Shown one piece after another: positions 24,905 through 42,152 of a stretch of DNA of 64,000 bases. Every line of letters begins with the position of its first letter. The stretch's first letter is position 1. The notes below the pieces were generated by a model. It ran no database searches and had not been told where the DNA came from. It saw nothing but the letters and a program-made list of their open reading frames with translations. The DNA is from Alphaproteobacteria bacterium (lineage in GTDB: Bacteria; Pseudomonadota; Alphaproteobacteria; Micavibrionales; Micavibrionaceae): the NCBI GenBank assembly GCA_030424975.1, contig JAUHVY010000001.1:679093-743092 (forward strand), in the 5' to 3' direction. A program made the translations under genes and the position numbers.

Positions 24905-26185
24905 ATGGCCGAGGCTGTTGCTTCTCAAAATACATCAGGAATTATTGAAACACTTGGACGCGAGGCAAAATCTGCTTCGCGTGTTTTAGCTCAAGCACCA
25001 ACATGTATTATTAATCAGGCGTTAGACACTTTAGCCGATTTGTTGGTGAAGCAATCATCAGATATAATTGCTGCAAATAAAATAGATATTGAATCGGCAG
25101 AACAACGTGGCCTCAGTAAGGCAATGATTGATCGTCTACTTCTGACGGATGAGCGCATTAAGGGCATTGCAAATGGCGTTAAGGTTGTCCGAGATTTAGA
25201 TGATCCTACAGAAAAAGTTCTATGGATTCAGGATCGCCCCAATGGGTTACATATTGAGCGTGTTGCCTGCCCTATTGGAGTTTTAGGTATGATTTATGAG
25301 TCACGTCCGAATGTAACGGTTGATGCTTCAATTTTATGCTTAAAATCACATAATGCAGTGGTATTACGCGGTGGTTCTGAAAGCTTACATAGTTCACTGG
25401 CGCTTCATCAGATTATTCAGCAGGCCTTAAAAGTAAACAACTTACCCGAAGCAGCCGTATCTATGATTCCAGATAGTGATCGTGCATTGGTTGGTGATAT
25501 GCTTCGTGCTGCTGAATATATCGATGTGATGATACCGCGCGGTGGTCATGGCTTGATTGAGCGCGTAATGAATGAAGCGCGGATGCCGGTCTTTGGTCAT
25601 TTAGATGGTCTATGCCATATTTTTGTACATCAATCTGTTAAGCCTGAAATTGCTACATCGGTAACTTTGAATGCAAAAATGCGCCGTACAGGCATTTGCG
25701 GCGCTATGGAAACGCTATTACTTGATAATGCTTTAGACGAAGCGTTAGCCAAAGAGATCCTTACGAATCTTTTAGATTCCGGATGTGAGATTGTTGGGGA
25801 TGATAAGGTATGTTCGATGGATGACCGTATTAAACCTGCAAATTCATCTGATTGGACAACCGAATATCTGGATTCAAAATTAAGTGTGAAATTTGTCAGT
25901 GATGTCAGTGCGGCGGTTAATCATATCAATGATTACGGTTCTCACCATACCGACAGTATTTTGGCAGAGGATCAAAGCGCCGTAGATTATTTCCTTAAAA
26001 ATGTTGATAGCGGTATCGTCATGCATAACGCATCGACGCAATTTGCTGATGGCGGTGAATTCGGGATGGGCGCAGAAATCGGTATTGCGACGGGAAAAAT
26101 GCATGCACGCGGCCCTGTTGGTCTTGAACAGTTGTGCACATACAAATACCATGTTCATGGTAACGGGCAGACGCGTCCGTCATAA
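24905..26185 (+). CDS. proA: Gamma-glutamyl phosphate reductase
   Basis: Second enzyme of proline synthesis, reducing gamma-glutamyl phosphate to glutamate semialdehyde with NADPH. The 426 residues belong to the aldehyde dehydrogenase superfamily. The catalytic Cys lies in 'NAKMRRTGICGAMETLL'. The family signatures 'GVLGMIYESRPNVTVD', 'VVLRGGSES' and 'DVMIPRGGHGLIE', and the C-terminal 'FADGGEFGMGAEIGIATG', are all present. Here it begins a run proA-nadD-rsfS-rlmH, physically separated from proB (6,997-8,148). Confidence 0.97.
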   Translation: MAEAVASQNTSGIIETLGREAKSASRVLAQAPTCIINQALDTLADLLVKQSSDIIAANKIDIESAEQRGLSKAMIDRLLLTDERIKGIANGVKVVRDLDDPTEKVLWIQDRPNGLHIERVACPIGVLGMIYESRPNVTVDASILCLKSHNAVVLRGGSESLHSSLALHQIIQQALKVNNLPEAAVSMIPDSDRALVGDMLRAAEYIDVMIPRGGHGLIERVMNEARMPVFGHLDGLCHIFVHQSVKPEIATSVTLNAKMRRTGICGAMETLLLDNALDEALAKEILTNLLDSGCEIVGDDKVCSMDDRIKPANSSDWTTEYLDSKLSVKFVSDVSAAVNHINDYGSHHTDSILAEDQSAVDYFLKNVDSGIVMHNASTQFADGGEFGMGAEIGIATGKMHARGPVGLEQLCTYKYHVHGNGQTRPS

Positions 26186-26867: not shown

Positions 26868-26895
26868 TTGCAGCGATTATAAAAAGGCATATAAT
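26868..26895 (+). promoter_or_regulatory. Promoter of the nadD-rsfS intergenic RNA
   Basis: TTGCAG (26868-26873), a 16-bp spacer and a perfect -10 TATAAT (26890-26895). The start site is expected near 26902. It begins 20 nt after the nadD stop and points into the 27,0xx terminator hairpin. Confidence 0.6.
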
Positions 26896-26901
26896 TACGG
26901 T

Positions 26902-27047
26902 ATGAGGTTATTATTTTATACTTCTGGCAGAAAGGTATTGGTGACGGCTTGATAGTAAGCACGCATCGTAGAAACTTTCTTTTATGTGCAATATCTGCTA
27001 ATGAGCAGAGGGTATGGCTGAACCATATTGGTTCGGCTTTTTTGTGT
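26902..27047 (+). ncRNA. Predicted small RNA or rsfS leader ending in an intrinsic terminator
   Basis: Between nadD and rsfS there is no ORF of note, but a full transcription unit is visible: a promoter with perfect TATAAT, about 143 nt of structured sequence, and a strong terminator. The terminator is GCTGAACCA (27017-27025) with TGGTTCGGC (27029-27037), nine pairs with one wobble, then TTTTTTGTGTTTT. A hairpin TCTGC-TAATGA-GCAGA lies at 26994-27009. ATACTT (26918-26923) can pair with GGGTAT (27010-27015) as a closing stem. It matches no RNA family I know. It could be a free small RNA or an attenuating leader for rsfS-rlmH, which begins 17 nt beyond the T-tract. Confidence 0.6.
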
Positions 27048-27063
27048 TTTAATTAAAGGAGAC

Positions 27064-27462
27064 TTGATCATTAAGACATACCATGACAAAGGGTCAATAG
27101 GCCCGGCTGAAGCCAAAGAACTTATCTTGCAATCGTTAGATATGGATAAGGCCGAAGATATTGTGTGCATCCCCCTTTCCGATAGTACAGGATTGGCTGA
27201 TTACATGGTTATTGCTTCGGGTACATCTACGCGGCATGTAAATGCTTTGGCAAAAAAACTTGAAGAGCGTTTGAACATTAAAGGGCTGAGAGGCATAAAG
27301 ACCGAAGGTTTATCGCAATGCGATTGGGTTGTGATGGATGCAGGTGATGTTATTGTGCATCTCTTCCGTCCAGAGGTTCGCTCCTTCTATAACATTGAGA
27401 AAATGTGGGCTTCTCCGAATCCTGCGCATCTTGATATTGTAGGCGACCAAGTTCAGGCTTAA
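27064..27462 (+). CDS. rsfS: Ribosomal silencing factor RsfS
   Basis: Binds L14 and blocks 30S-50S joining when nutrients are scarce. The core 'LILQSLDMDKAEDIVCIPL', 'GLADYMVIASGTSTRHV', 'GLSQCDWVVMDAGDVIVHLF' and 'RSFYNIEKMWA' is diagnostic. The start is unclear: no ATG or GTG fits in the N-terminal region. TTG 27064 is only 2 nt from AAAGGAG (27055-27061), while ATC 27067 and ATT 27070 are better spaced (5 and 8 nt). I give the TTG. A terminator hairpin ends about 20 nt upstream, so expression may be attenuated. rlmH follows, as in most bacteria. Confidence 0.9.
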   Translation: MIIKTYHDKGSIGPAEAKELILQSLDMDKAEDIVCIPLSDSTGLADYMVIASGTSTRHVNALAKKLEERLNIKGLRGIKTEGLSQCDWVVMDAGDVIVHLFRPEVRSFYNIEKMWASPNPAHLDIVGDQVQA

Positions 27463-27497: not shown

Positions 27498-27968
27498 GTG
27501 CGACCTGCTGTGTTGAAAATTGATATTATCTGCGTTTCTAAATCGAAGAAGGGCGCGCTCCATGATTTGATCGCCGATTATCAAAAGCGCATTAATTGGA
27601 AGCTCAATATCATTGAGCTGGAATCAAAATATAAAGAATCACAAAAATGTCAGGCCGATGAGAATGAAAAAATTCTCTCTTATCTTGAGCCTACTGCGGT
27701 TTTAGTCATCCTCGATGAAAAAGGAAAAAGCCTAAAATCGCTCGACTTTGCGGCCAAGCTAGAACATTACAAAGATATTGGGCAAAACCACATTCAATTT
27801 GTTATTGGTGGGGCTGACGGCCTCCTCCCTCAGGTCAGAAAAAAAGCTGATATCTTGTTATGTTTTGGTCAACAGACATGGCCTCATATGTTGGCGCGTG
27901 TTATGCTTCTTGAACAAATTTACAGAGCTCAACAGATCATGTCCGGACACCCATATCATAGGGAATAA
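27498..27968 (+). CDS. rlmH: 23S rRNA (pseudouridine1915-N3)-methyltransferase RlmH
   Basis: SPOUT-fold methyltransferase acting on helix 69 of 23S rRNA in the 70S ribosome. Recognised by 'LVILDEKGKSLKSLDFAAKL', the knot region 'IQFVIGGADGL' and the ending 'WPHMLARVMLLEQIYRAQQIMSGHPYHR', which is near-invariant in the family. The start could be GTG 27498, GTG 27510 or TTG 27513 (just before 'KIDIICVSK'); none has a convincing Shine-Dalgarno, and the last gives the usual RlmH N-terminus. It lies 35 nt after rsfS and 34 nt before the envC start. Confidence 0.95.
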   Translation: MRPAVLKIDIICVSKSKKGALHDLIADYQKRINWKLNIIELESKYKESQKCQADENEKILSYLEPTAVLVILDEKGKSLKSLDFAAKLEHYKDIGQNHIQFVIGGADGLLPQVRKKADILLCFGQQTWPHMLARVMLLEQIYRAQQIMSGHPYHRE

Positions 27969-41954: not shown

Positions 41955-41974
41955 TCCAATCACATATTTATTAG

Positions 41975-42152
41975 TGTGCCGCGCGAGCCGTGTGCGTATG
42001 GTATCTTCGCGGGGTCCTGAAAGTCAGGTGGGTGCCGTATATCAAAGCCCCCCGGGCGAACCGATTGGACTAAGTCAGTGACAGCTCCCTGTGCAAAGAA
42101 GCATCGACCACCGAGATAAAGCCGCATGCACGCACTCCGCAGCACGCGCATA
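41975..42152 (-). ncRNA. ssrS: 6S RNA (SsrS)
   Basis: The 230-bp gap between zapA and the 5-formyl-THF cyclo-ligase holds no gene but folds as 6S RNA. On the minus strand the 5' arm GCGCGTGCTGCGGAGTGCGT (42149 downward) pairs in long register with the 3' arm CATACGCACACGGCTCGCGC (to about 41981), forming the closing stem. GC-rich apical sequence with 'TCGCCCGGGGGGC' sits between, and the interior is bulged. The zapA-ssrS-ygfA order is the classical location. 6S RNA sequesters sigma-70 RNA polymerase in slow growth. The ends are approximate (plus or minus 10 nt). Confidence 0.85.

Follow-up and report, generated by a model that had tools for sequence, protein, structure and literature searches.

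Leaderless short ORFs encoding polycysteine are said to act as attenuators in mycobacteria, in work of 2020 attributed to Canestrari. Judged by its title, that system is like the rsfS leader described here in that a leaderless short ORF controls downstream genes, and unlike it in that cysteine codons are the sensor, of which the rsfS leader has none. In Sinorhizobium meliloti, trpL encodes a leaderless leader peptide (PMC7298713, in excerpt). As would hold for rsfS, the transcript opens, in an alphaproteobacterium, with the ATG of a short frame placed before a terminator; unlike trpL, which that excerpt treats as a case of tryptophan attenuation, the rsfS leader has two frames, no sensor codons, and a second frame that crosses the terminator.

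For the start codon the nearest parallels are infC, which encodes IF3, starts with AUU and is subject to IF3 autocontrol, and Streptomyces sigR, which has a GTC start under IF3 (both in passages of PMC5472188). The rsfS gene of the locus resembles these two in having a start conserved outside ATG, GTG and TTG, and infC of the same genome has an ATT after AAGGAG at a similar spacing. It differs from both, as those passages describe them, in its two upstream frames and terminator, and in that a role of IF3 is here our supposition. RsfS binds uL14 and blocks subunit joining (PMC7125091, in excerpt). The E. coli gene, whose expression peaks in exponential phase, starts with UUG (PMC10917681, in excerpt) and is likewise annotated from TTG; it thus shares a weak start codon with the locus described here, and differs from it in that UUG is not one of the starts against which IF3 is said to discriminate, namely those other than ATG, GTG and TTG (passages of PMC5472188). 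Among the matches listed in a search of open-licence literature, neither an AUU start nor a leader of this kind is reported for rsfS.

The locus lies in a 64,000-nt window (the whole stretch of DNA analysed) of a 2.43 Mb genome, with the order proA, nadD, leader element, rsfS and rlmH (Table 1). The identity of nadD, rsfS and rlmH is backed by Pfam, while the ORF at 24905-26185 is presumably proA, as named from its sequence and place; rlmH is probably on the same transcript as rsfS. Elsewhere in the window, a 6S RNA match on the minus strand (41972-42148) scores 48.3 bits, barely above the cut-off of 46.4. Comparison with relatives supports the promoter with its ATG, uORF1, an ORF2 that runs through the hairpin, and the AUU start of rsfS, with no clear amino-acid constraint. 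On this basis we consider it somewhat more probable than its opposite that this element, as the 5' leader of the rsfS(-rlmH) transcript, acts as a translation-relay attenuator.

Table 1. Features of the nadD-rsfS region, in window coordinates
Feature	Position	Strand	Basis
Sigma-70-type promoter, TTGCAG-16-TATAAT	26868..26895	+	TTGC and -10 box kept in 66 aligned family loci
uORF1, ATG at expected +1, 16 codons, TGA stop, expected to be leaderless	26902..26952	+	
Shine-Dalgarno-like GGTGA for ORF2, within uORF1	26940..26944	+	Sequence and score rule
ORF2, TTG start overlapping the uORF1 stop, 35 codons, TAA (27054-27056) just 5' of the rsfS Shine-Dalgarno	26949..27056	+	
Intrinsic terminator hairpin and T tract, inside ORF2	27016..27045	+	Pair changes in ten related hairpins
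rsfS Shine-Dalgarno AAGGAG	27056..27061	+	
rsfS, ATT start codon 27070-27072	27070..27462	+	PF02410 8e-32; start from comparison
rlmH, next gene after rsfS	27498..27968	+	SPOUT_MTase PF02590 1.7e-47

Genes for RsfS (PF02410) are present in 98/104 genomes of the window's family (its own genome counted) and in 55/58 genomes of a first set spanning the order. Upstream DNA was compared for the 98 family loci, the window's included, and for 21 loci in 20 genomes belonging to other families of the order, leaving out second rsfS fragments of genome G086 and one of G039. Upstream of rsfS, nadD is recognised in 89 family loci, with a nadD-rsfS gap of 120-300 nt in 79. A DNA search of the 58 genomes with the whole nadD-rsfS gap of the window gave one clear relative beside rsfS, in the same genus (L002/L047; 71% over 100 nt), the remaining matches being short (15-49 nt); the transcript is hardly conserved outside the promoter and start.

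An earlier note on this DNA had pointed to a TATAAT with a TTGCAG partner, and the pair (26890-26895 and 26868-26873, 16 nt apart) is indeed the top promoter match in the 3.2 kb scanned (10/12). Promoter-like sites in this region number 10 (9.1±3.2 in shuffles) and terminator-like sites 3 (3.3±1.8), an excess in neither, and the case therefore has to rest on relatives. An exact TATAAT or TAAAAT is found 70-330 nt 5' of rsfS in 88/98 family loci (110 matches), and the spacing from this exact -10 box to an ATG is 6 nt in 66 of the 110 (66 loci), 7 nt in 10 and any other value in at most 5 each. Since an A lying 7 nt past the end of the -10 box is the usual transcription start, the ATG of uORF1 should be leaderless, and its placement fits a leaderless start in 66/98 family loci. 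In an alignment of 66 family loci, in which the -10 box is set by the search itself, TTGC at -35, A at -20 to -18, T at -1 and ATGAG are prominent. The A-rich patch in the promoter spacer, counted back from the uORF1 ATG, has A in 57, 45 and 38 of the 66 loci at its three positions.

With the 6-nt spacing as the criterion, the ATG pattern occurs in 71 loci, comprising 68 of the family and three (L059, L066 and L071) that are within the order but outside the family. It is absent from 30/98 family loci, among them 5/12 of the window's genus; in two loci that lack it (L072 and L080) the nadD-rsfS gap is just 21-24 nt. In the window's genome the full pattern is found at 3 places, the window's site included, versus 1 for a reversed control. 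In 70 of the 71 loci uORF1 is 11-24 codons long. In a test on 69 loci (L058 and L063 left out, as also from the hairpin counts) all 69 have this length, versus 22.2±4.3 (max 34) in 200 dinucleotide shuffles that retain the ATG and shuffle the downstream sequence alone; the comparison between frames is not neutral for uORF1, because the ATGA start by itself often introduces a stop in frame +1.

uORF1 is coupled to a second frame, ORF2, whose start lies -9 to +12 nt from the uORF1 stop in 65/67 loci tested; the two overlap as NTGA in 37/65, and the ORF2 start sits at -7 or -8 in 12/65. A coupled start with at least 4 Shine-Dalgarno letters is present in 60/69 loci, versus 4.7±2.1 (max 11) in the same kind of shuffles. 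Followed from the start chosen by rule up to a point 40 nt 5' of rsfS, ORF2 is free of stops in 51/65 loci, compared with 6 and 15 for the other frames and 17.4±3.6 (max 28) in shuffles; allowing for kinship by taking one locus per genus or per outside family, the figures are 22.4/28 versus 1.1 and 9.1. The stop-free test leaves out L058, L063, L066, L145 and two more loci with no ORF2 candidate (hence n=65). ORF2 starts reassigned by hand in L047, L070, L111 and L122 enter the hairpin, coupled-start, codon-difference, residue-run, rsfS-start and reach-rsfS counts, not the stop-free or one-per-genus tests. Both frames are thus kept far above chance across loci. In 7/11 loci of genus g3 and both loci of g9, a single leaderless frame of 44-56 codons overlaps the rsfS start instead. 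A frameshift from uORF1 into ORF2 was considered and rejected, as the distance between the uORF1 stop and the ORF2 start is not constant: it ranges from -8 to +7, and the relatives L056 (+3) and L118 (+4), for instance, differ.

An intrinsic terminator is present between the promoter and rsfS. The hairpin with a T-rich tail described in the earlier note is GGCTGAACCA-TAT-TGGTTCGGCT (27016-27038), followed by TTTTTGTG, and T-tailed hairpins of -7 kcal/mol or lower are present in 58/69 ATG-bearing loci versus 22% of mononucleotide shuffles (39/71 loci with a stricter finder), leaving 11/69 with no hairpin of -7 kcal/mol. The 145-nt transcript folds with a z of -3.4, and 1/200 shuffles is as good; of two extra pairings proposed for it, TCTGC/GCAGA is part of the minimum-energy fold and ATACTT/GGGTAT is not. 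Among ten hairpins of equal geometry, two-sided changes are seen in 5/9 pairs with all cells paired, which supports conservation of the terminator stem, the ten being mostly from two genera and picked because they fold, and so not an unbiased test. The uORF1 stop is 63 nt 5' of the hairpin, so that a ribosome on uORF1 cannot mask it and one on ORF2 can. In the 55 loci with both hairpin and ORF2, ORF2 ends past the T tract in 43, within it in 4, inside the hairpin in 7 and before it in 1, and the T tract has no fixed phase with respect to ORF2 (21/21/13).

The statement that rsfS is without a normal start codon also holds. In the window no ordinary start lies at the usual Shine-Dalgarno distance: the in-frame TTG at 27064 is too near AAGGAG (2 nt), and the ATT at 27070, 8 nt from AAGGAG, is kept in relatives. 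By a rule that searches at most 18 nt around the position projected from the window's protein, the starts in the 98 family loci are ATT (74), ATC (3), ATA (1), TTG (16) and ATG (3), with 1 unassigned; ATT, ATC or ATA is thus found in 78/98 loci and is the majority in 31/36 genera. Genera g3 (11/11), g18 and g50 have TTG starts, and two g4 loci and one g1 locus have ATG. Independently of this rule, 37/97 loci have no possible in-frame ATG, GTG or TTG between the upstream stop and 27 codons before the conserved motif, and the codon after their Shine-Dalgarno is ATT (33), ATC (3) or ATA (1); ten loci, namely L147, L079 and eight from the named set described below, are without that motif. The same count in the neighbouring genes, with another limit (query residue 8), gives 0/90 for rlmH and 6/84 for nadD. 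Choosing the codon with the best Shine-Dalgarno is noisy when used alone (the rlmH control gives ATT in 26/90), and the weight is therefore placed on conservation and on loci where ATG, GTG and TTG are impossible. In L041 and L048 rsfS has an ATT start without any uORF1, which gives the weak start a wider distribution than the leader. Of 26 loci in relatives, 12 showed the infC motif, with ATT (9), ATC (2) or ATA (1) as best start candidate; in infC of the window's genome (L244) the spacing between AAGGAG and ATT is 7.

In the proposed mechanism, transcription would begin at or next to the A of the ATG at 26902, so that uORF1 would be translated leaderless. Ribosomes finishing uORF1 would restart at ORF2, the start codon of which overlaps the uORF1 stop, and an ORF2 ribosome trailing RNA polymerase over 27016-27038 would block folding of the terminator hairpin. 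This ribosome would then stop beside the rsfS Shine-Dalgarno, from where it could pass to the AUU start. When leader translation is poor, the hairpin would fold and just the ~145-nt RNA would be produced. The input would presumably be the state of initiation, through IF3 or free 70S ribosomes. Several findings stand against this relay: the family loci that lack the 6-nt pattern, the ATG-bearing loci with no hairpin of -7 kcal/mol, the 8/55 ORF2 frames that end before or inside the hairpin, the TTG and ATG starts of rsfS in some loci, the lack of the leaderless pattern in the named loci outside the group (see below), and the Shine-Dalgarno letters of both ORF2 and rsfS. The attenuator of rsfS-rlmH suggested in the earlier note fits these results, while the two reading frames, which it had missed and which accompany the conserved AUU start, make the predicted mechanism one of translation across the terminator and no longer of RNA folding alone.

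The element may be simpler than this, with uORF1 and ORF2 delivering ribosomes to the weak AUU start by translational coupling and the hairpin cutting output by a fixed amount. The single long overlapping frame of g3 and g9 would suit such an arrangement, as would the fact that ORF2 reaches or overlaps the rsfS start in 7/10 loci without a -7 kcal/mol hairpin versus 20/55 with one; a hairpin is nevertheless kept in most ATG-bearing loci and ORF2 is open across most of them, and we regard coupling alone as unlikely. A free small RNA, the other option raised in the earlier note, would be the ~145-nt terminated transcript acting in trans. It would have its own promoter and terminator and the low folding energy given above, yet the sequence is poorly conserved and the reading frames are kept. 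No Rfam family reaches its gathering score with the window element (the best sub-threshold match is rli42, 19.1 bits versus 80), in keeping with the remark that it belongs to no recognised family, and the elements of five relatives match no family either. With so little in its favour, a trans-acting RNA seems very unlikely, and the relay attenuator is preferred.

The remaining alternatives concern the peptides. That ORF2 encodes a functional small protein could explain why it is open in most loci, and synonymous changes are slightly commoner in its real frame (46/262 changed codons) than in shifted frames (27/252 and 37/252). Thirteen of the 46 come from one pair of loci, L033/L035, in which differences fall mostly at third positions (11/6/18) and 13 codon changes are synonymous versus 10 others, which makes ORF2 look protein-coding in these two loci; L033 is without a hairpin of -7 kcal/mol. 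Over 26 disjoint pairs, however, ORF2 differences per codon position are even (131/140/139), and a Pfam search with two ORF2 products gave no match, making a small protein very unlikely; for uORF1 the figures are 51/70/70 over 34 disjoint pairs, the test being coarse in both cases as many distant pairs align poorly in frame. Amino-acid sensing of the trp or ilv kind, which would likewise have a short translated leader before a terminator, is rejected and given next to no chance: runs of three equal residues occur in just 3/69 uORF1 and 8/65 ORF2 peptides, no residue dominates, so that the leader lacks the sensor codons of the classical trp/his/ilv type, and the target is not a biosynthesis operon. 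Selection seems to keep the translation of the leader and not its peptides.

The leaderless pattern is found in 0/68 named loci outside the Micavibrio group, and the two-frame leader therefore seems limited to the Micavibrio-like order. Weak rsfS start codons, judged from the same loci, look conserved beyond it. A candidate start with at least 4 Shine-Dalgarno letters, seven codons being allowed, was found in 34/68 (some of the other 34 have an in-frame ATG), and the candidates are CTG (10, though at least two such calls, L165 and L179, are doubtful), ATA (7), TTG (7), ATT (6) and ATC (4), with no ATG or GTG. ATG, GTG and TTG are impossible in 13/72 named loci, which include L151, L153, L155 and L156 of the Micavibrio group and L199, a duplicate of the family f3 locus L064. 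In five Rhizobiaceae, GAAAGG-N7-CTGACAACAG is kept. By group (L158-L229), CTG is seen in Rhizobiaceae, ATA, ATC or ATT in Rhodospirillales-like records, and TTG in Sphingomonas. Three Rhizobiaceae records (L262, L263 and L264) place the rsfS start at three different points around one conserved CTG, namely 78 nt upstream, 30 nt upstream and 27 nt downstream. In L042 (family f3), left out of the uORF1 and ORF2 counts, the ATG 6 nt from a -10 box is the start of rsfS itself, which has a lysine-rich N-terminal extension, and rsfS there may be leaderless; similar proteins occur in L049 and L050.

In E. coli, elevated IF3 inhibits non-canonical starts, leaderless mRNAs and re-initiation without a Shine-Dalgarno, the last effect being weaker where a Shine-Dalgarno is present (PMC2268962, in excerpt). 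The first two of these cases would be present in the rsfS leader, and the third would be softened by the Shine-Dalgarno letters of ORF2 and rsfS. Binding of 70S ribosomes to leaderless mRNAs is described in parts of another source, in which IF3 has a dual role, low levels helping and high levels inhibiting (PMC9031893). Since leaderless and AUU initiation in E. coli are both inhibited by an excess of IF3, the signal may be IF3 or free 70S ribosomes. That it is the state of the ribosome pool which the leader senses, through its leaderless and AUU starts and coupled re-initiation, is a possibility we advance tentatively, on analogy, and consider doubtful.

If the relay attenuator is correct, leader translation, termination and an AUU start would form a concrete circuit that sets the level of a widespread ribosome brake, and the leader would clearly exemplify selection that acts on translation as such and not on the peptide. 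The rsfS gene would join infC among genes whose conserved start codon is non-canonical, a start missed by annotation. The comparison suggests that the cell sets the amount of RsfS by how ribosomes begin translation. If the ribosome pool is indeed what is sensed, RsfS, which acts on the 50S side, would be made when IF3, on the 30S side, is short or free 70S is in excess, giving feedback between two anti-association factors, and the weak rsfS starts of other Alphaproteobacteria would be a simpler form of the same control.
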